Of a stretch of 64,000 bases of DNA, positions 42,602-53,479 are shown piece by piece. Each line of letters starts with the position of its first letter. The first letter of the stretch is position 1. The position numbers and the translations under genes were made by a program. The stretch comes from Planctomycetota bacterium (GTDB lineage Bacteria; Planctomycetota; Phycisphaerae; Phycisphaerales; UBA1924), in contig JAFEBP010000005.1 in the NCBI GenBank assembly GCA_018242605.1, positions 830,861 to 894,860 on the forward strand. Direction: 5' to 3'. The notes under the pieces were generated by a model. It had not been told where the DNA came from and did no database searches. It saw only the letters and a list, made by a program, of their open reading frames with translations.

Positions 42602-43099
42602 TCAGTTCGCGAAGTGGGCGAACGCGCGGTTCGCTTCGGCCATGCGGTGCGTCTGGTCACGCGTCTGCATCGCCTTGCCCTCGCCGCGTGCCGCGGCGTA
42701 CAGCTCGTCGGCCAGGCGGCTGGCGATCGGCCGGCCCTTCTCGCCGCGGGCCGCCTCGAGGATCCAGCGGAACGCCAGCGACTGCTGACGTTTCTTGTTG
42801 ACCTGCATGGGCACCTGGTAGTTGGCGCCGCCGATGCGCTTGCTGCGGACTTCAACGTACGGCTTGACGTTCTCCATCGCCCGCTGGAAGACCTCGAACG
42901 CCTCCTTGGGCGCTTCGGGAGAGGTTTCCTTGCTGAGCTTCAGGTTGATGATGTCAAAGCAGTCGTACACCGCGCGCTGCGCAACGGCCTTCTTGCCGTC
43001 CTGCATCACGCAGTTGATGAACCGGGCGACCACGCGATCGTTGTACCGCGGATCGGGACGCAGCTGGAAATCGGCCTTGGTGAAACTCTTGGCGCCCAT
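42602..43099 (-). CDS. rpsG: 30S ribosomal protein S7
   Basis: A 165-aa S7 that nucleates assembly of the 30S head by binding 16S rRNA. Diagnostic blocks: [60 protein letters not shown] and [13 protein letters not shown]. It is a little longer than the 156-residue E. coli protein. The ATG at 43099 has GGAG 6 bp upstream. It follows rpsL by 122 bp. No fusA or tuf follows; the transcript ends at the bidirectional terminator. Confidence 0.97.
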
Positions 43100-43221
43100 G
43101 TGAACTCCTGAGTGGCTGCGGGGCCGGGCCCCTGACTGTTCACCGTCGGGGGCCGGGCGGGCCTGATCCGACGATTACTGCCTGTGAAACCCCGCCGGCG
43201 ACTCGCCCGCGGGAAACGAGA

Positions 43222-43596
43222 TTAAGACTTGCCCTTCTTCGCGCCGTACTTGCTGCGGCCCTGCTTGCGGTTCTCGACGCCCAGGCAGTCGAGCGAGCCG
43301 CGGACGATGTGGTACCGCACACCGGGAAGGTCACGCACGCGGCCGCCACGCACGAGCACGATGCTGTGCTCCTGCAGATTGTGGCCTTCGCCGCCGATGT
43401 AGGCGGTGACTTCCTTGCCGTTGGAAAGACGCACACGGGCGATCTTCCGCAGAGCCGAGTTCGGCTTCTTGGGGGTCGTGGTGCGCACGTTGAGGCAGAC
43501 ACCGCGCTTCTGCGGGCACTCAACCAAGTCCTTGACCTTGGACTTGGTGGGCAACGGGCGACGCGGATTGCGAACCAACTGGTTGATCGTCGGCAT
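43222..43596 (-). CDS. rpsL: 30S ribosomal protein S12
   Basis: A 124-aa S12, normal length, a decoding-centre protein. Diagnostic blocks: [60 protein letters not shown] and [20 protein letters not shown] then [11 protein letters not shown]. The lysine in TPKKPN, the classical streptomycin-resistance position, is the wild-type residue. It is the first gene of a two-gene rpsL-rpsG unit. Confidence 0.98.
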
Positions 43597-44134
43597 GAGT
43601 CAATGATCCGTGAGTGACAACACACCCCAACCAAATTCGGTCGGGGCAAGGGGGGAAAGTGTAGCGTCCTGCCGGCCGGAAGCAAGGGGAACGCCTCCCC
43701 TACTCACCGATGGCAGCCGGGCTCTGCGGGGACCCCCGCCGATGCAGAAAATCCGACCGCGTTCGGCCGCACCCGTGCGCAAAATGGCGGCGTTCACCAA
43801 TCACCGACCCTGCCGCCTCGAAGACCAAGCGTACATCCACTTATGCGTCCGGTCGCGCGCCGCTGGCTCCCGATTTGGACTTCTGCTGCTCGCCTATTGA
43901 CCTCGCGCGACCGTCCTGACTCCGACATGTGGGATACGCCCTATAACTACTCATCCTCGCGCGGCGCACACTCGACCAGAAGTTCATCGTGCATTCGGAT
44001 CTCGTTCGCAACACCAACCGACGTTCAGGAATTTGCAATCTTCGCCCTCATTTTGCGGCCGAAACGCCGCCAGAGACCAGCCTCCGGGGCGTGAAGGGCC
44101 TATCCATAGCTACCTGCCTTCCGGAGCATGCCCC
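43597..44134. other. Gene-free divergent region upstream of rpsL and the beta-helix gene
   Basis: About 540 bp with no supported gene. It must hold the rpsL promoter on one strand and the promoter of the secreted beta-helix protein on the other. Repeat copy B lies at 43934-43988, oriented with the beta-helix gene. Short frames here lack ribosome sites and protein-like composition. Confidence 0.5.
43934..43988 (+). repeat. Repeat copy B
   Basis: Begins ATACGCCCTATAACT and ends ACCAGAAGTTCATC. It aligns with copy C (44144-44199) over about 55 nt with one gap. Its 3' 34 nt (CTCGCGCGGCGCACACTCG onward) match copy A on the other side of the window. It sits in the leader of the beta-helix gene. 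Confidence 0.6.
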
Positions 44135-46501
44135 ATGTCCGCAATACGTCTTATAACTTGTACTCGTCGCGGTGGCGCACACAGGACCAAAAGTTCATCT
44201 CGCGTCCTCGCCGTGATCGCCGGGGCACTTCTCTCCCAGTTCGGGTTCGCTCAGGCGCCCGCCGAACTTCCGGTCGTCAAAGTCACCCGAGACAACACCG
44301 CCATCGATCACTCTTGCCGAGTCGTCATCGAACCCGGCGCCCTGATCGCCGATCCGGACAACAACGGCGTCATCCAGATCAAGGGCCGCGGCATCACGGT
44401 CGAGTTTGAACCCGGCTCTGTCCTCCAGGGCGGCCCCACGACTACCGATCCTGACCAGTTCACCGGCGTCGGCATCACCGTGACCGATTCCCCCGGCGTG
44501 ACGCTGCGGAACCTGAGAGTCAACGGCTTCAAGGTGGGGCTGCTCGCGCAGAACTGCGATTCTCTCACGCTCGACAACGCGGGCTTCGCCGACAACTACC
44601 GCCAGCGCCTCCGCTCCACGCCATCGGCCGAGGACGGCCAGGACTGGCTCTTCCCTCACGAGAACGACAAGCACGAGTGGCGCACCCAGCACGGTGCCGC
44701 GGTGTGCATCGAAAGATCCTCCGGCGTCACCGTGAAAAACGTCACGGTCCGGCGCGGCCAGAACGGCATCATCCTCGACCGCGTCAACGACTCTCGCATC
44801 TACGACAACGACTGCTCCTTCCTCTCCGGCTGGGGAATCGCGATGTGGCGTTCCTGCGGCAACATCATCTCCCGCAACGCCGTGGACTTCTGCGTCCGAG
44901 GGCACAGCGAGGGCGTCTACAACCGGGGCCAGGATTCCGCAGGTTTCCTGTTCTTTGAGCAGTGCCACCGCAACGCCTTCCTCGAGAACTCCGCCACCCA
45001 TGGCGGCGACTGCTTCTTTGGCTTCGCGGGCAAGGAGGCCATCGGCGAGCGCCCCCCCGCCGACGGCACTCCGGTCGCGCCGGAAAACGCCGGCTGCAAC
45101 GACAACCTGCTCATGGAGAACGACTTCTCCTACGCCCCCGCGCACGGCATCGAGATGACGTTCAGCCGCCGCAACCGCTTCATCCACAACCGCATCGTCG
45201 GTAACGCCATCTGCGGGGTCTGGGGCGGCTACTCCAACGACACCACCATCGCCGAGAACAACTTCAGCGATAACGGCGGTATGGCGTACGGCCTCGAGTG
45301 CGGCGGAGTGAACATCGAGCACGGCAGCGGCAACCGAATCATCGCCAACTCGTTCATCAACAACCGGTGCGCCGTCCACCTGTGGTGGGACGATGACGGC
45401 AACCTCCTCAAGCTCCCGGGCGTCGCCGGGATGCACCGGGGGGTGGTCGGCAACATCATCGCCCAGAACCACTTCGAGATCAACCCGAACCACCCGTTCA
45501 CTTCGCCCCGCGAGAGGAACTCCCCGCTCGTCGTCATCCGCCTGCGTGACACCGGTGATGGACACGTGAAGGACAATCTCTACACCGTAAATGCCCTGCA
45601 ACTCACCGATCCCCGCGCGACCGAGTTTGATGTGAAGCCCGGCATCGAGCCAACCACCACGGGCAAGTTCGATGCCGTGTATCAGGAGGAGAACCACGCG
45701 GTAGGCGAGAAACACCCGGTGGGCGCGAGGCCCCAGCTCCGCGGCCGCGACCAGATCATCATGGGGCCTTGGGGGCCTTGGGACCATGAATCGCCGATGG
45801 TCCGCACCCGTTCGCGAGAGGGCGGCAAGCACGTGTACGAAGTCTTCGGCAACATGCCCGAGGGGTTGGGTCTGACCTGTTCCGTGACCGCCGAAGCCGT
45901 GGCGCCGACCGCCCCCGGCCGTCCGACGGTCGTCACCGTCACCCCCAAGGGCGGCGCAGATGTCCAGCCGTACAGACTCTCACTCAAGGCCAAGGACCTC
46001 AACTTCACCGCCAAAGATGTGCTCATCGCCGCCTCATGGGAAGTCGTCGCCTTCCCATGGTCAAAGGATCCCCGCACCGATTTCGAGGGCTACACCGCCG
46101 ATCGCAAGCGTGTGCCCAAGGCCGCCGTCACACTGCCTTCGCTCGATCTCAACTTCGGCGGCCGCGGCCCGCGAGATATGCCCCAGTTCGCCGAAGTACG
46201 CGACAAAGCGCCCGGTCCCGATCACTTCGGCATTGTCGCCGTGAGCACCATGAATCTGCCCAAGGGCGTCTGGAAAATCACAACGCTCACCGACGACGGA
46301 ATCCGCGTAAAGGCCACGACCAAGGCCGGCACCACCACAGTTATCGAGAACTGGACGTGGCACGGGCCCACCCGCGACCAGGGCATTTTCAAGGTCGAAG
46401 AGGACCAGCCCGTCACGCTGGCCGTCGAGTACTTCGAGATCGACGGCCACGCGGTGCTTCAACTCAACATCGAGCCCGACAGCGCTCGCCCCAATCCATA
46501 A
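44135..46501 (+). CDS. Exported right-handed beta-helix protein with PA14-like C-terminus
   Basis: A 788-aa exported protein. The ATG at 44135 has GGAG 9 bp upstream; a signal peptide follows a basic stretch and ends FGFAQ (about residue 40). Residues about 50-480 carry many short N-x-I/V repeats (GITVTDSPGVTLRNLRVNG, SSGVTVKNVTVRRGQNGIIL, NDSRIYDNDCS, CGNIISRNAV), the pattern of parallel beta-helix proteins such as NosD or pectate lyases. The last 150 residues (WKITTLTDDGIRVKA, VEYFEIDGHAVLQLNI) resemble a PA14 carbohydrate-binding domain. A carbohydrate-directed surface function is inferred. Repeat copy C lies inside its first codons. Confidence 0.75.
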   Translation: MSAIRLITCTRRGGAHRTKSSSRVLAVIAGALLSQFGFAQAPAELPVVKVTRDNTAIDHSCRVVIEPGALIADPDNNGVIQIKGRGITVEFEPGSVLQGGPTTTDPDQFTGVGITVTDSPGVTLRNLRVNGFKVGLLAQNCDSLTLDNAGFADNYRQRLRSTPSAEDGQDWLFPHENDKHEWRTQHGAAVCIERSSGVTVKNVTVRRGQNGIILDRVNDSRIYDNDCSFLSGWGIAMWRSCGNIISRNAVDFCVRGHSEGVYNRGQDSAGFLFFEQCHRNAFLENSATHGGDCFFGFAGKEAIGERPPADGTPVAPENAGCNDNLLMENDFSYAPAHGIEMTFSRRNRFIHNRIVGNAICGVWGGYSNDTTIAENNFSDNGGMAYGLECGGVNIEHGSGNRIIANSFINNRCAVHLWWDDDGNLLKLPGVAGMHRGVVGNIIAQNHFEINPNHPFTSPRERNSPLVVIRLRDTGDGHVKDNLYTVNALQLTDPRATEFDVKPGIEPTTTGKFDAVYQEENHAVGEKHPVGARPQLRGRDQIIMGPWGPWDHESPMVRTRSREGGKHVYEVFGNMPEGLGLTCSVTAEAVAPTAPGRPTVVTVTPKGGADVQPYRLSLKAKDLNFTAKDVLIAASWEVVAFPWSKDPRTDFEGYTADRKRVPKAAVTLPSLDLNFGGRGPRDMPQFAEVRDKAPGPDHFGIVAVSTMNLPKGVWKITTLTDDGIRVKATTKAGTTTVIENWTWHGPTRDQGIFKVEEDQPVTLAVEYFEIDGHAVLQLNIEPDSARPNP
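44144..44199 (+). repeat. Repeat copy C, within the 5' end of the beta-helix gene
   Basis: Begins ATACGTCTTATAACT and ends ACCAAAAGTTCATC. It contains the exact 13-mer ACCAAAAGTTCAT at 44186-44198. It starts 9 bp after the ATG, so here the repeat is translated as part of the pre-signal-peptide region. Confidence 0.6.
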
Positions 46502-46622: not shown

Positions 46623-47336
46623 ATGCTCCTCGCCCCGCTTCCAACCCGAGTTCTCTCGCACGAACTCATGGATGCCCCGGACCTCGCGCCCGATCAGACG
46701 CACCTCGCCCTGCGAGGCCTCGCCCGGCTTAACACCTTCAGCGGCGCGGCGCGAACTCTGTGGCGAGCCATCGAGCCTGTCGCCCGCACCCATAATCCCC
46801 TCTCGCTGCTGGACATCGCGACGGGCTCCGCCGACGTGCCGCTGGAAGTCGCACGGCTCGCCCGTCGCCGCGGTTGCACGCTCAACCTCGCGGCGTGCGA
46901 CATCCGCCCCGAGATGCGTGCCGCCGCCGCCGCCAATGCCGCCCGCCGCGGCCAATCCCTCCGGCTGTTCTCGTTCGACGCCCTCCGCGACCAGATCCCC
47001 GATCGCTTCGACATCATCACCATTTCTCTGTTCACGCACCACCTCGATGATCCCGCCGTCGTCCGCCTGCTCAGCACCGCTCGCCAAGCGACGCGGCGAC
47101 TGCTCATCGTGAGCGATCTGCACCGCACGCCCGTCAACCTCGCCCTCGTCGCAACCACCAGCCGGCTCATCACCACGAGCCGAATCGTGCACACCGACGC
47201 GGTGCTCTCCGTCCGCGCGGCATTCTCCATCCCGGAAATGGCCGCTCTCGCATCGCAGGCCGGGCTGGTCAACGCTCGGGTCACGCGAACCTTCCCATGC
47301 CGCCTGCTCCTGACCTGGAGCCCGCCCGATGCCTGA
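46623..47336 (+). CDS. SAM-dependent methyltransferase, class I
   Basis: A 237-aa protein, first gene of the type III PKS set. SAM motif I is LLDIATGSADVPLEVARLA, the acidic residue of motif II is in NLAACDIRPEM, and post-motifs DIITISLFTHHLDD and LLIVSDLHRT follow in class I order. The sequence is close in style to UbiE-like C/O-methyltransferases. Its stop overlaps the start of the FAD oxidoreductase by 8 bp. In context it probably methylates the polyketide product or a derived phenol/quinone, as SrsB does in the Streptomyces srs pathway; this is inference by analogy. Confidence 0.82.
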   Translation: MLLAPLPTRVLSHELMDAPDLAPDQTHLALRGLARLNTFSGAARTLWRAIEPVARTHNPLSLLDIATGSADVPLEVARLARRRGCTLNLAACDIRPEMRAAAAANAARRGQSLRLFSFDALRDQIPDRFDIITISLFTHHLDDPAVVRLLSTARQATRRLLIVSDLHRTPVNLALVATTSRLITTSRIVHTDAVLSVRAAFSIPEMAALASQAGLVNARVTRTFPCRLLLTWSPPDA

Positions 47337-48477
47337 CGCGGCTCCCACCGATCTCCCGGAATCATGCGATGTGGCCGTCGTCGGCGCCGGCCCCGCCGGT
47401 GCTCTCGCCGCCCTGCTCCTCGCACGCCGCGGCGTTCGCACACTCCTCATCGACAAGGCCACCTTCCCTCGCGCCAAAGTCTGCGGGTGCTGCCTCAATG
47501 AAGCTGCGCTCACCATCTTGGACGACGCCGGGCTCTCGCACATTGCACGCTCCGCGCCGCAGCTGAATCGACTCCGCCTGCACACCTCCGGCCGAACCGC
47601 GGAGATCTCGCTTCGACCCGGCGCCGCACTCTCTCGCGGCACCCTTGATCTCGCCATCGCCACAGCCGCGTCAAACGCCGGAGCGACATTTATCCAAGGG
47701 TCTTCCGCCAACATCGGCCCCACCGAACCGGCGGGACGGGTCATTCACCTCGGCGATCGCAAGGTCGCCGCGCGAGTTGTCCTGTGCGCCACCGGCCTCG
47801 CATCGAACGCCTCGACAGATCAACAGCCGGAGCTTGCTGCCGGCTCCCGCATCGGCTTGGGTGCATTGCTCGCCGCTGACGCGTCCTTTTCACCAGCGCA
47901 CACAATCTCGATGGCCTGCACGAGGAACGGATACGTAGGCGCGGTCACGCTCGAAACCGGCGACATCGACATCGCCGCCGCGATCGATCCAGAGTTCGTC
48001 CGACGCTGCGGATCTGCCTGCGCCGCCGTCTGTGACATTCTCGATCACGCAGGCGTCGGAGTGCCGGCGGCGTTGCACGCCGCGCGTTTCCGCGGCACAC
48101 CGCCGCTCACTCGCCACCGTCGCAGCCTTGAATCGCCCTGCCTCTTCTTCATCGGCGACGCCGCGGGGTATGTGGAGCCATTCACCGGCGAGGGTATTTC
48201 CTGGGCGCTTGCGTCCGCCGTCTGCGTCGTTCCGCACGTGCTCGCGTGCCTGGAAAGCACCTACGAGTCCGGCGCCTTCACTCACAATCTTCAACGCCTC
48301 CTTGCCCCTCGCCACCGGCGCTGCAGAGTTGTTTCCGCGCTTCTGAGATCGCCCGCCGCGACGCTCTTCGCCGCTTCCTGCGCGGCTCACCTTCCTCGGC
48401 TCGCCGCGGCGATTTCACATCGCTTCGGCGCCCCTTGGCCTTCAATCAAGCAGGAGCCCCACGGAGCCGTCGCGTGA
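47329..48477 (+). CDS. FAD-dependent oxidoreductase (geranylgeranyl-reductase-like)
   Basis: A 382-aa flavoprotein. The dinucleotide motif VAVVGAGPAGALAALLLARR opens the Rossmann fold, followed by LLIDKATFPRAKVCGCCLN (usually KVCGDGL; here C-x-C-C) and the second FAD motif FIGDAAGYVEPFTGEGISWAL. This architecture is shared by the geranylgeranyl reductase and aromatic monooxygenase group of p-hydroxybenzoate-hydroxylase-fold enzymes. Between the methyltransferase and the polyketide synthase, with overlaps on both sides, it is a candidate hydroxylase or reductase acting on the polyketide-derived ring. The substrate is unknown. Confidence 0.85.
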   Translation: MPDAAPTDLPESCDVAVVGAGPAGALAALLLARRGVRTLLIDKATFPRAKVCGCCLNEAALTILDDAGLSHIARSAPQLNRLRLHTSGRTAEISLRPGAALSRGTLDLAIATAASNAGATFIQGSSANIGPTEPAGRVIHLGDRKVAARVVLCATGLASNASTDQQPELAAGSRIGLGALLAADASFSPAHTISMACTRNGYVGAVTLETGDIDIAAAIDPEFVRRCGSACAAVCDILDHAGVGVPAALHAARFRGTPPLTRHRRSLESPCLFFIGDAAGYVEPFTGEGISWALASAVCVVPHVLACLESTYESGAFTHNLQRLLAPRHRRCRVVSALLRSPAATLFAASCAAHLPRLAAAISHRFGAPWPSIKQEPHGAVA

Positions 48478-49580
48478 ACACTCCCAGGCTCCATGCCATC
48501 GGCCTCGCGGAACCCGCACACTCCATCGGCCAGGACGCGGCCGCGAAGTTCGCCGTCGCCAGATCGAACGCCATCGGTTCCGATCCCCGTTTCGTTGAAC
48601 GAATCTACAGAAACTCAAAGGTCACCACCCGAGGCAGCGTGCTCCTCGCGCCCACCCCGCTCCGCCCCGACGCGGTTCCGCTATTCGATGAAGCTACCGG
48701 CAACTCCGGCCCCACCACCGCCGACCGGCTCCGAGCGTTTGAACAGTGCGCCGGCCCGCTCGCCGCGCAAGCCGTTCGCAAGGCGCTCAGCAGCGCCCAA
48801 CTCACGCCCACTGACATCACCCACCTCATCGTCGTCTCTTGCACCGGCATGTCAGCGCCCGGCGTTGACTGCGAGCTCGTGGCTGAACTCGGCCTCTCTC
48901 CCACCACCTCACGCACCAATCTGGGGTTCATGGGCTGCTACGGCGGAATCGCAGGCCTCCGAACCGCAGCAGCGTTCGCCAAGGCCGAACTCGGCGCGGT
49001 CGTCCTGCTCGTCTGCGTAGAGCTCTGCTCGCTGCACTTCCAATACGACGCCGCACCCGATCAGGCGATCGCCAACTCCCTCTTCGCTGACGGCGCCGCG
49101 GCGACAATCATCTCCTGCCGCAGCCCCGTCTCCGTCCACGCCGCTTCCATCTCCGCGTCGGCCTCCGCCATCCTCCCCGACTCCGCCGACCTCATGTCCT
49201 GGCGCATCGGCAACCACGGCTTCGAGATGACTCTGGCCCCAAAGGTCCCGGAGCACATCAAAGCCCATCTGCGCCCCTGGCTCGAGCCGTGGCTCGCTGG
49301 AGTCGGCCTCGCCGTGCCCGCCATCGCTTCCTGGGCCATCCACCCCGGTGGGCCCAAGATCATCGCCGCCGCCCTTGAAGGTCTGGGACTGCCCGACTCG
49401 GCCGCGGCCGAATCCGCCGCCATCCTGAGCTCCCGCGGCAACATGTCCTCCGCCACCGTCTTCTTCGTCCTCGATGCTCTCCTCAAGTCCCGCGGCGCCA
49501 GCAGCCTCCCAAGCGTCCTCTTGGCATTCGGCCCCGGCCTCTCCGCCGAAGCAGCTCTCCTCACCCCGCCCCCACCATAA
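48474..49580 (+). CDS. Type III polyketide synthase
   Basis: A 368-aa chalcone/stilbene-synthase-family enzyme that extends an acyl-CoA starter with malonyl-CoA and cyclises the product. The catalytic triad is intact: Cys155 in GFMGCYGG, His290 in WAIHPGGPKI and Asn323 in SSRGNMSSAT. The length is normal. The start is taken as GTG at 48474, overlapping the previous stop as GTGA with GGAG 9 bp upstream. Co-transcription with a methyltransferase and flavoprotein matches the gene content of bacterial alkylresorcinol/alkylquinone pathways (srsA-srsB-srsC type). The starter and ring pattern cannot be read from sequence alone. Confidence 0.92.
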   Translation: MNTPRLHAIGLAEPAHSIGQDAAAKFAVARSNAIGSDPRFVERIYRNSKVTTRGSVLLAPTPLRPDAVPLFDEATGNSGPTTADRLRAFEQCAGPLAAQAVRKALSSAQLTPTDITHLIVVSCTGMSAPGVDCELVAELGLSPTTSRTNLGFMGCYGGIAGLRTAAAFAKAELGAVVLLVCVELCSLHFQYDAAPDQAIANSLFADGAAATIISCRSPVSVHAASISASASAILPDSADLMSWRIGNHGFEMTLAPKVPEHIKAHLRPWLEPWLAGVGLAVPAIASWAIHPGGPKIIAAALEGLGLPDSAAAESAAILSSRGNMSSATVFFVLDALLKSRGASSLPSVLLAFGPGLSAEAALLTPPPP

Positions 49581-49641
49581 CCCACCCCAAACCGAAACCC
49601 CACTTTTCAACCCAAGAAGTGCCGCGTATACTTGCCCGTTC

Positions 49642-49716
49642 GCCGAGGTAGCTCAGCTGGTTTAGAGCGCTGGATTCATAACCCGGAGGTCGGCGGTTCG
49701 AGTCCGCCTCTCGGCA
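49642..49716 (+). tRNA. tRNA with CAU anticodon (Met, or Ile2)
   Basis: A 75-nt cloverleaf: acceptor GCCGAGG (49642-49648) pairs with TCTCGGC (one G-U), D-stem GCTC/GAGC, anticodon CAT at 49677-49679 in TTCATAA, T-arm GGCGG-TTCGAGT-CCGCC, discriminator A, no encoded CCA. The anticodon stem has an A-C apposition next to the loop. The G1-C72 pair argues against the initiator. Elongator Met and lysidine-modified Ile2 cannot be told apart here. Confidence 0.92.
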
Positions 49717-50246
49717 TTCAACTCCGTATTCTCGCAGATTCTCAGGCACCGACGCACGAACCCCTAGATCAAGGGGTTTTTTGCGTTTATGAGCCCGGCT
49801 GTGGAGTGGGCCGTGCCTGCGGGTACTTCGCCGTCAAGGTCACCGCAAGGGTGTGAACAGTGCTCCGGTGCCTGCCAATCCCTCCCCCTACGTGCTTGCG
49901 AATGGCGGATTTGCGAAATAAAGCGCCGGCCTACCAATGCTCGGAGTTCCTCTGCGGAAACACGCGTGTGACCTTCGCGTCCAAGGCCTTGTGGAGCCAG
50001 CACGATCCAATCGCGGCGCTCCGAGTTTGCACCCAACAGCGGCGCGGTATCGGACTCATTTCTCGGCGTTGACCTTGCCGGGTCTCCCTAGCATTCCCCA
50101 GTTGGCGTCGCTCGATGCCCACAACTGATTTCCGGATTGGCAGACGCGATCTGTAGCTCCGCCGAGTGCACTGATCGCAGCAAAAATGCGTGAACTTCGA
50201 TGCAGCCCGGCCGTTCACGTCCGCCGACTTCCACGACCCATTCGCC
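49717..50246. other. Gene-free stretch after the tRNA
   Basis: About 530 bp. It holds the tRNA terminator at 49759-49782 and then no convincing gene on either strand; short frames have no ribosome site and no family resemblance. tRNA 3' ends are common integration points, but no integrase or duplicated tRNA end is visible. Confidence 0.5.
49759..49782 (+). terminator. Intrinsic terminator after tRNA
   Basis: AACCCCT (49759-49765), loop AGATCA, AGGGGTT (49772-49778), T-run to 49782. It lies 43 bp past the tRNA 3' end. Confidence 0.85.
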
Positions 50247-50813
50247 ATGAGCCAGCCCGCCGATCAAGACGTCACGCAGCTACTTGAACGCATCCGTTCG
50301 GGCGATGACGCGGCGACCAGCGAACTTCTGGGTATCGCCTACCACGAGCTGCGCGCCCTCGCGGGTCACGTGTGGCGCGATCAGCCCGGCGACCACACCC
50401 TTCAGCCCACCGCCCTCGTCAACGAAGCGTGCATGCGGCTCCTCAAGACCAATCCGAACGGCTGGAATGATCGAAAGCACTTCTTCCGCGTCGCCGCCCG
50501 GGCCATGCGCAACCTGCTCACCGATCACGCCCGAGCCAAAGGCGCACAACGCCGCGGCGGGCACGATATCCGCGTTTCCATTGACAACACCCAGGTCGCG
50601 TCACTCGACCAGGGCGTCGATCTTGTCATACTCAACGACACCCTAACAAAGCTCTCCGATCTGGACTCTCGCCTCGGTCAGATCTTTGAGTTGCGCTTCC
50701 TGGTCGGTCTTTCCGTTACTCAAACGGCGGAGATCATCGAAGTATCACCCCGGACGATCGAACTGGATACGCAGTTCATCCGGGCCTGGCTTCAGAAGGA
50801 AATGTCGGCGTGA
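50247..50813 (+). CDS. ECF sigma factor (Sigma70_ECF type) paired with a kinase
   Basis: A 188-aa sigma factor. Region 2 contains LLGIAYHELRALAGHVWRDQ and HTLQPTALVNEACMRLL, the diagnostic block of the planctomycete-rich Sigma70_ECF group, then FFRVAARAMRNLLTDHARAK. Region 4 is LGQIFELRFLVGLSVTQTAE with VSPRTIELDTQFIRAWL. The ATG at 50247 is taken; a GTG at 50190 is possible and neither has a good ribosome site. Its stop overlaps the kinase start (GTGA), so kinase and sigma factor are made together. This gene pairing is known for ECF groups thought to be controlled by phosphorylation. Confidence 0.9.
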   Translation: MSQPADQDVTQLLERIRSGDDAATSELLGIAYHELRALAGHVWRDQPGDHTLQPTALVNEACMRLLKTNPNGWNDRKHFFRVAARAMRNLLTDHARAKGAQRRGGHDIRVSIDNTQVASLDQGVDLVILNDTLTKLSDLDSRLGQIFELRFLVGLSVTQTAEIIEVSPRTIELDTQFIRAWLQKEMSA

Positions 50814-53479
50814 AAGCCATGGCGAGCAACATGACACGAGAACACTTCGCGGCCATCCGCGAGTTGTTCCATCGAGCGTTTGAACTGCCCGAGCGAGAAC
50901 GGACCGCTCTGCTGCAGCGCGAATGCGTGGGCCGCGATGACCTTCGGACCGCGGTCGAGGAGTTGCTCCGCGCTGAACAGACCGCCTCGGAACATCTCAA
51001 TCCGGATGGCGGCCTCATCGTGCGCTGCCTCATGACCGAGTCCGCGAACAACAGGGGCGACACCGCACTCCCGGAGTTCATTGGGCCATACCGCGTCCGC
51101 AACCTGCTGGGACGGGGTGGGATGGGCGAGGTATATCTCGCGGAGCAGACCAATCCGCGCCGCGATGTTGCGCTCAAGGTGCTTCATCGGGGCGCGACGC
51201 GTCGAAGCCTGTTCGACAGATTCTCTCGCGAGATACGGGCGTTGGGCCGTTTGGAGCATCCCGGCATCGCCCGCATATACGAGGCGGGCCAGGTCGAACA
51301 CTCCGACTCCCGGATCCCGTACTTCGCCATGGAGTTCGTGAGCGGACAGAACCTGACCGAGTTCGCCCGCTCTCAATCGCTCGATCTACCTTCGCGGTTG
51401 GAACTGGTGGCCAAAATCGCCGACGCTGTGCAGCACGCCCACACCAAGGGAGTCATCCACCGAGATCTCAAGCCTTCGAACATACTGATGGCCACCGCAG
51501 ACGTCTCCAAGGTCGGAGATGCCAAGGGAAGCCGCTGCGAAACCCGCACAGGCTTCTCGGGCCCTCAGCCAAAGATCCTTGACTTTGGAGTCGCCCGCGT
51601 GCTTGAGCCCGAAGTCACCGAGTCCGCCGCTACCGAGGCCGGATTGCTCATCGGCACGGTCGCTTACATGAGCCCCGAGCAACTCAACGGCGACAGCGCG
51701 GGCGTCGACGCCCGCGCCGATGTCTACGCCATCGGTGTCATCCTCTACGAGCTCCTGACCGGCCGTCTGCCGCACGAAGTCCGGAGCAAGCCGCTTTCGG
51801 AGGCCGCGCTCATCGTCTGCGAACACGACCCGGCGCCGTTGTACCGGCGCGGCCAAACGCCTCTGGGCCCCTTCGACCGCGACATTCAGACCATCGTCGC
51901 CCGCGCTCTCACCCGAGACCGCGAACAGCGATATTCGACCGCGGCGGCGTTGTGCGACGACCTGCGTCGGTACCTTCGAAGCGAGCCGGTCCTCGCACGT
52001 CGGCCGACGGTGACTTACCAACTCTCCAAGTTCGCTCGCCGCAACAAGGGTCTCGTGACCGGAGCGGCGGTGGCGCTGCTCGCGCTGGTGGCGGGCCTGA
52101 TCGCCAGCACCGTGCTGTACGCCCGCGAGCAGGAGGCCCATCAACGAGCGGACGCCAAGGAACGACTGAGCAGCGCGGTGCAGACATATCTGGTGGACGG
52201 TTTGCTGATGGCCGCGGCCCCTGAACGCATGGGCCATGAAGTCAAGATGCTCGATGTGCTCACCCTGGCGGCCGACGGATTGGAAGACCGGTTTGCCGAC
52301 CAACCGGACGTCGAAGCGACGATCCGCGCCGAACTCGCCGAGGTACTCAGCAAGGTCGGCAAGTTCGAGGAGAGCGAGGCCCAGTTCGCCCTTGCCATTC
52401 CTCTGATGGAGCGGGTTTTCGGCATTGACGATCCCCGGACAATCCGGGCGTTGTTGAGCCGCAGTTCCAACGCCCACCAACTGAAGAAGCTGCCCGCCTC
52501 GGCCCAGACCGCCAACGAAGCGCTCACACGAACCCGACGTTCCCTCCCGACCGGCAGCGATCTCGAAATCGCGGCCCTGCAGCAACTGGGCGCCACGAAC
52601 ATCGCCCAAGGCCGCTTCAAGCCCGCCAAAGCCGCGCTGCACGAGGCGTTAGACCTTGCTCAACTGGCACCGGACGAACACCAGGCCGCCATCATCGCCA
52701 TCCAGGCGTTGATCGCCGTCGCCGACGGTCACCGCGCCGCTGGCGACTCTGAGTCCATCGGTGAAATCGCCGAAGCCGCCGCGGTCACGCTCGGCCCCGA
52801 CAACCCCACCACCATCAACACCCGCAGCAACCTGCTCATCAGACTCAACGCGGCGGGCAAGGCGGCCGAAGCGGTCGCCATCGCGGCGGAACTCCCGGCT
52901 TCCGCGGAACGCACTTTCGCGCCCGGCCATCCGATGCGGGGCCACGTGTATCGCAACAGCGCGGAGTCATACCGCATCGCGGGGCAGTTCGAGCAAGCCG
53001 AACGCCTGGCTTTGATGGCCAACGACATCTTTTCGCAGTTGCAGCCCGAGCAGTTGCCCGAGCAGGAGGTCTGCATGGCCCAGATGCGAGCCATCTACTC
53101 CCAATGGCCGGGGCATCAGGACCAGTTGCAATCCTGGAGCGTGAATTCAATCGGCGCCCGATTGAAGATGGCCTTGCCCGGCCGTTGGTTCACGGTCCGT
53201 AACACGCTCCAGAAGGTCATTTCCGACCTGGCTACTGGCGGAATTCAGATGACCGATTGCGACCTGCTGGCATCCGTCTGGGATTCCCGCGACACTTTCG
53301 CGCCACCCGGGAACAAACGCCGAGCCATGTTCTTCGCCAACTTCGCCCGCGCGGCTGCCGCCGCGGGAGACCTTTCCCATCATCAGGAAGCTCTCGCGAT
53401 GGCCCAGGCTGCTTTGTCGGACGCTGAAAAGCCCAATGTGGTGTCGAGGATGATCGAGAACGCAGCGTCTCAGCGGTGA
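50810..53479 (+). CDS. Membrane Ser/Thr protein kinase with TPR-like sensor region
   Basis: An 889-aa PknB-type kinase. The kinase domain spans about 92-400: Gly loop LGRGGMGEVYLAEQ, Lys in VALKVLH, catalytic loop IHRDLKPSNIL, DFG in ILDFGVARV, and SPEQ in VAYMSPEQLNG. A 20-residue insert precedes the DFG. One membrane helix near 415-435 (AAVALLALVAGLIASTVLYA) separates it from a C-terminal helical region of about 440 residues with TPR-like repeats (EESEAQFALAIPLMERVFG, PAKAALHEALDLAQ, GQFEQAERLALMANDI). It probably controls the sigma factor encoded by the overlapping upstream gene. Confidence 0.9.
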   Translation: MKAMASNMTREHFAAIRELFHRAFELPERERTALLQRECVGRDDLRTAVEELLRAEQTASEHLNPDGGLIVRCLMTESANNRGDTALPEFIGPYRVRNLLGRGGMGEVYLAEQTNPRRDVALKVLHRGATRRSLFDRFSREIRALGRLEHPGIARIYEAGQVEHSDSRIPYFAMEFVSGQNLTEFARSQSLDLPSRLELVAKIADAVQHAHTKGVIHRDLKPSNILMATADVSKVGDAKGSRCETRTGFSGPQPKILDFGVARVLEPEVTESAATEAGLLIGTVAYMSPEQLNGDSAGVDARADVYAIGVILYELLTGRLPHEVRSKPLSEAALIVCEHDPAPLYRRGQTPLGPFDRDIQTIVARALTRDREQRYSTAAALCDDLRRYLRSEPVLARRPTVTYQLSKFARRNKGLVTGAAVALLALVAGLIASTVLYAREQEAHQRADAKERLSSAVQTYLVDGLLMAAAPERMGHEVKMLDVLTLAADGLEDRFADQPDVEATIRAELAEVLSKVGKFEESEAQFALAIPLMERVFGIDDPRTIRALLSRSSNAHQLKKLPASAQTANEALTRTRRSLPTGSDLEIAALQQLGATNIAQGRFKPAKAALHEALDLAQLAPDEHQAAIIAIQALIAVADGHRAAGDSESIGEIAEAAAVTLGPDNPTTINTRSNLLIRLNAAGKAAEAVAIAAELPASAERTFAPGHPMRGHVYRNSAESYRIAGQFEQAERLALMANDIFSQLQPEQLPEQEVCMAQMRAIYSQWPGHQDQLQSWSVNSIGARLKMALPGRWFTVRNTLQKVISDLATGGIQMTDCDLLASVWDSRDTFAPPGNKRRAMFFANFARAAAAAGDLSHHQEALAMAQAALSDAEKPNVVSRMIENAASQR

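Follow-up and report, generated by a model that had tools for sequence, protein, structure and literature searches.

The three genes at positions 46623-49580 of the window, the 64,000-nucleotide stretch of DNA analyzed here, very likely form a hidABC-type alkylresorcinol operon in a planctomycete of the class Phycisphaerae. Its gene order, gene-by-gene homology, PKS clade, and gatekeeper methionine are all those of the hidABC type. The preliminary description, made from the letters alone, had proposed a pathway to methylated, possibly oxidized phenolic lipids, and this is still the best reading given the order of the trio, the clade of the PKS, and the behavior of relatives that have been expressed.

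All three genes lie contiguously on the forward strand with head-to-tail overlaps. The first, in the HidA position, encodes a 237 aa class I SAM-dependent methyltransferase (46623-47336, + strand, ATG start). It is followed in the HidB position by a 382 aa FAD-dependent oxidoreductase with the motif K50-V-C52-G-C-C (47329-48477, + strand, ATG start) and in the HidC position by a 368 aa type III PKS (48474-49580, + strand, GTG start). The overlap is 8 bp between the methyltransferase and FAD genes and 4 bp between the FAD gene and the PKS, whose GTG start sits within GTGA. On rechecking the sequence, the coordinates, order, strand, and overlaps in the preliminary description were all correct. 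Since the genes overlap, they are probably transcribed as a single unit. A mechanical ORF list contains a longer PKS frame opening at 48246; we prefer the start at 48474 because the gene lengths and overlaps in relatives support it. Third-position GC is strong and typical of real genes (0.82 for the methyltransferase, 0.73 for the FAD gene, and 0.81 for the PKS). Together with family matches and conservation, codon-position GC rules out chance ORFs.

The PKS matches Pfam families PF00195 (E=2e-27) and PF02797 (E=1e-18), both above cut-off. The Cys155-His290-Asn323 triad, previously noted as intact, is indeed found at these positions and is invariant across all 112 aligned PKSs. AlphaFold models of the PKS and the FAD enzyme were built from alignments of the window proteins and their relatives. 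The PKS model (mean pLDDT 91.8) has a CHS-like thiolase fold and aligns with solved type III PKSs at TM scores of 0.86-0.91; the highest-ranking matches include Ectocarpus PKS1, Mycobacterium PKS18, and chalcone-synthase-like enzymes. The triad and the predicted fold identify the protein as a type III PKS. Met252 occupies the gatekeeper column, where 104/112 aligned PKSs share a methionine that is absent from PKS18, DpgA, and Steely1 in the alignment. This column appears to be the position of CHS Phe265, which is reported to be replaced by methionine in the HidC clade (PMC8086630).

Phylogeny, the check originally suggested for this gene, places the window PKS in the hid/planctomycete family and not with unrelated thiolase-fold enzymes. 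The references in the trees, standing in for HidC, SrsA, and ArsB, were picocyanobacterial hid loci, PKS18, DpgA, Steely1, and an Ectocarpus PKS. A branch with an SH-aLRT of 100 separates the PKS from the PKS18-type alkylpyrone enzymes, and with a wider outgroup the hid/planctomycete grouping is supported at 94/90. This separation bears on whether the PKS makes alkylpyrones (lactonized tri- or tetraketides) like PKS18 and PKS11, with the partner enzymes decorating a pyrone. PKS18 and its Mycobacterium marinum homolog are close among solved structures (30-31% identity, TM about 0.87), and the cyclization mode of a type III PKS is rarely settled by sequence alone. However, the gatekeeper column holds Met in the window PKS and Cys in PKS18, and the product-forming enzymes of trio-type operons all gave resorcinols (PMC10896814). 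With the SH-aLRT 100 branch added, we regard alkylpyrone synthesis as very unlikely.

The position of the PKS within the family is less sharply defined. Its closest tree neighbors are, weakly, Phycisphaeraceae sequences. Identity is 38-50% to the hid/planctomycete trio loci as a set, about 38-47% to planctomycete members and 44-50% to picocyanobacterial copies, and falls to 32-40% for Streptomyces DpgA, PKS18-like enzymes, and other plasmid-borne type III PKSs. A deepest-branching position of the window PKS in the family was not rejected by AU tests (p 0.15-0.63); the constraint, which joins it to the outgroup, asks only about deepest-branch position within the family, and long branches in the outgroup weakened the first of these tests. 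Two genomes of the window's genus (L044 and L047) have PKSs that sit in a different subgroup from the window PKS, and a joint clade of all three was not rejected either (p 0.147). Gene exchange or old paralogy may account for this split. The window PKS could also be a divergent branch whose product differs in chain length, extender, or ring closure, giving a new phenolic lipid in Phycisphaerae. We consider this unlikely. What appears to set the trio apart from the family is only sequence divergence, with identity in the 40% range.

Gene order also links the trio to the hidABC type. We searched the window's own genome together with 40 relatives, which range from members of its genus to members of its order; 35 of these 41 genomes gave a PKS match, strong in about 20. 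Of the 20 genomes with the best matches, which cover the same taxonomic span, 19 keep the methyltransferase-FAD-PKS order, and in most cases the PKS overlaps the gene before it by 4 bp. One same-family genome (G012) carries a divergent FAD-PKS pair (L049, 4464-6775) where a methyltransferase was undetected. A scan of named genomes gave 80 relatives, mainly from planctomycetes and picocyanobacteria, with minor groups in Omnitrophota, Elusimicrobia, Gemmatimonadota, Acidobacteria, and Halomonadaceae. The trio order is kept in 88/108 related loci, which is not an unbiased frequency because the loci were selected by PKS similarity, and the genes mostly overlap or nearly do so. Loci with the order include those of Synechococcus, Cyanobium, Gimesia, Lacipirellula, and Paludisphaera; several of the remainder end at contig edges. 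In Paludisphaera borealis, the trio is plasmid-borne, and plasmids of Deinococcus and Psychrobacter carry rearranged versions.

The FAD enzyme matches PF01494 above the Pfam cut-off (E=8e-16) and is 29-44% identical to family loci that include Cyanobium, Synechococcus, a Gimesia MAG, and Lacipirellula. The C52-G-C-C sequence is present as first described, but it was wrong to call it unusual. Among 91 FAD enzymes of trio loci, C-G-C-C is the commonest form (37), followed by C-G-G-C (31), C-G-A-C (11), and C-G-S-C (7); Cys52 and Gly53 are conserved among relatives, and Cys55 is nearly always present. The C-x-C-C motif is a family trait of these enzymes, so it is ruled out as a distinguishing feature of this locus.

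The AlphaFold model of the FAD enzyme (mean pLDDT 91.5) is nearest to solved group A aromatic hydroxylases and flavin halogenases, with TM scores of 0.62-0.77 and named matches to PqsL, PltA, PnpA, and 3-hydroxybenzoate 6-hydroxylase. The top matches by profile point elsewhere. In NCBIfam, the highest-scoring model is that of the geranylgeranyl reductase subfamily (TIGR02032) at 109 bits, under the cut-off of 159, and the best PDB profile match is the digeranylgeranylglycerophospholipid reductase 3oz2, which has a Cys-Gly at the equivalent place and aligns with the model at a TM of 0.70. The protein might therefore be a geranylgeranyl-reductase-related reductase acting on the alkyl chain or a quinone. 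This would contest one step of the proposed pathway and leave the rest intact. We think a reductase possible and still the less favored assignment, since the model resembles aromatic hydroxylases and flavin halogenases more closely, and since hierridin B has an extra ring hydroxyl such as a hydroxylase would add (PMC10896814). An aromatic ring hydroxylase is more likely on the modeled fold.

The methyltransferase matches PF13649 above the Pfam cut-off (E=1e-8) and the NCBIfam model PRK06202 at 194 bits, under the cut-off of that model. Orthologs hold the same place in related loci, mostly at 30-49% identity, and identity to the family loci of Cyanobium, Synechococcus, a Gimesia MAG, Lacipirellula, and others spans 27-49%. 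The family of this enzyme also bears on an initial comparison of the trio to srsABC of Streptomyces griseus. At the level of function the likeness stands, as both systems combine an alkylresorcinol synthase, methylation, and monooxygenase-type hydroxylation. However, the srs core is reported to consist of a PKS, an isoprenylcysteine-carboxyl-type (ICMT) methyltransferase of the SrsB type, and a monooxygenase (PMC6669644), whereas the window enzyme matches class I SAM families only in Pfam, and no ICMT-type methyltransferase was found beside the PKS and FAD genes in that search. In srsABC, the PKS is named first; in the window, the trio opens with the methyltransferase and closes with the PKS. 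Methyltransferase family and gene order thus lead us to reject homology to the srs operon and to treat the likeness as a functional analogy only.

The nearest characterized systems are instead planctomycetal and cyanobacterial. Milke et al. 2024 (PMC10896814) surveyed 131 planctomycete genomes, counted 96 type III PKS genes, of which 58 lie in a methyltransferase-FAD-PKS trio (mtr-fdo-t3pks), and noted the likeness of this trio to Cyanobium hidABC. The window trio shares with this cluster the phylum, the same three families in the same order, and the same PKS family with its triad. In that study, expression in C. glutamicum gave alkylresorcinols with the PKSs of Gimesia maris, Rhodopirellula baltica, and Stieleria maiorica, the trio-operon enzymes making pentadecyl- and heptadecylresorcinols, and two of the six planctomycete PKSs assayed, both from outside a trio operon, gave no product. 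When the methyltransferase and FAD genes of G. maris were expressed as well, the ring was methylated, probably on carbon, and the role of the FAD enzyme was left open (PMC10896814). These assayed PKSs make C15/C17 alkylresorcinols. The host of the window trio is a different species and belongs to Phycisphaerae, where Milke et al. found such genes rarer. The hierridin operon hidABC of Cyanobium and Synechococcus has the same gene order and the same methionine at the gatekeeper column; Larsen et al. 2021 (PMC8086630) count 47 clusters of the hierridin-like type among cyanobacteria.

By analogy with the assayed relatives, the PKS would load a C16-C18 fatty acyl thioester onto Cys155, extend it with three malonyl-CoA units, and close the tetraketide by C2-C7 aldol condensation and decarboxylation to give a 5-alkylresorcinol. 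Gene content suggests that the methyltransferase would act on the ring hydroxyls, as does HidA, which O-methylates both phenols, or instead on a ring carbon, as proposed for G. maris. The FAD enzyme would hydroxylate the ring, yielding a methylated alkyl-hydroquinone or quinone, or a hierridin-like lipid. Most likely, the final lipid would be a methylated, probably hydroxylated, C15-C17 alkylresorcinol.

What such a lipid does for the cell is a matter of role and not of chemistry. In Mycobacterium, quinones made through type III PKSs serve in electron transport (cited in PMC10896814), and the trio is located amid housekeeping genes, so the product might have a primary role, for example as an electron carrier or an alternative quinone in the membrane, and not be a secreted or defensive compound. 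We find this rather unlikely: the distribution is patchy, with a family member in 42 of 198 sampled genomes of the class, and knocking out the PKS in S. maiorica produced no phenotype in growth or with ampicillin (PMC10896814).

The pathway was also first described as probably little studied, which does not hold. A 2024 study surveyed this same operon and expressed PKSs from it (PMC10896814), and hidABC/hierridin, its cyanobacterial form, had been reported before that. The alkylresorcinol kit is thus on record from many planctomycetes and cyanobacteria; the window trio is another ordinary copy and extends the operon to a further Phycisphaerae lineage. Our literature search found no product for this operon or for any of its relatives in Phycisphaerae. 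Products reported so far all come from the class Planctomycetia (PMC12078418), so a chemical product from this trio would be a modest first. The questions of FAD function, methyl position, and lipid role are common to the whole family and not specific to this locus.

The genes around the trio appear to lie outside the pathway. Upstream are the ribosomal protein genes rpsG and rpsL (S7 and S12; 42602-43596, - strand), a few kilobases away, and a right-handed beta-helix/NosD-like protein (44033-46501, + strand). Downstream, the gene for an ECF sigma factor (PF07638) overlaps one for a TPR-repeat Ser/Thr kinase (50190-53479, + strand). The beta-helix gene recurs at none of the 108 related trio loci, the sigma factor has one weak match, and the kinase has four, two of them on the same contig. 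Because these genes hardly or never recur, we place them outside the pathway, and the 108-locus search rules out a larger cluster that includes them. In Paludisphaera borealis, a sigma factor-kinase pair also directly adjoins the trio; given kinase matches in only 4/108 loci, its presence beside both trios is probably a coincidence. A tRNA-Met gene (anticodon CAT; 49642-49716, + strand) begins 62 bp 3' of the PKS, with a promoter-like site ahead of it at 49604-49632 and a terminator-like hairpin past it at 49758-49779.
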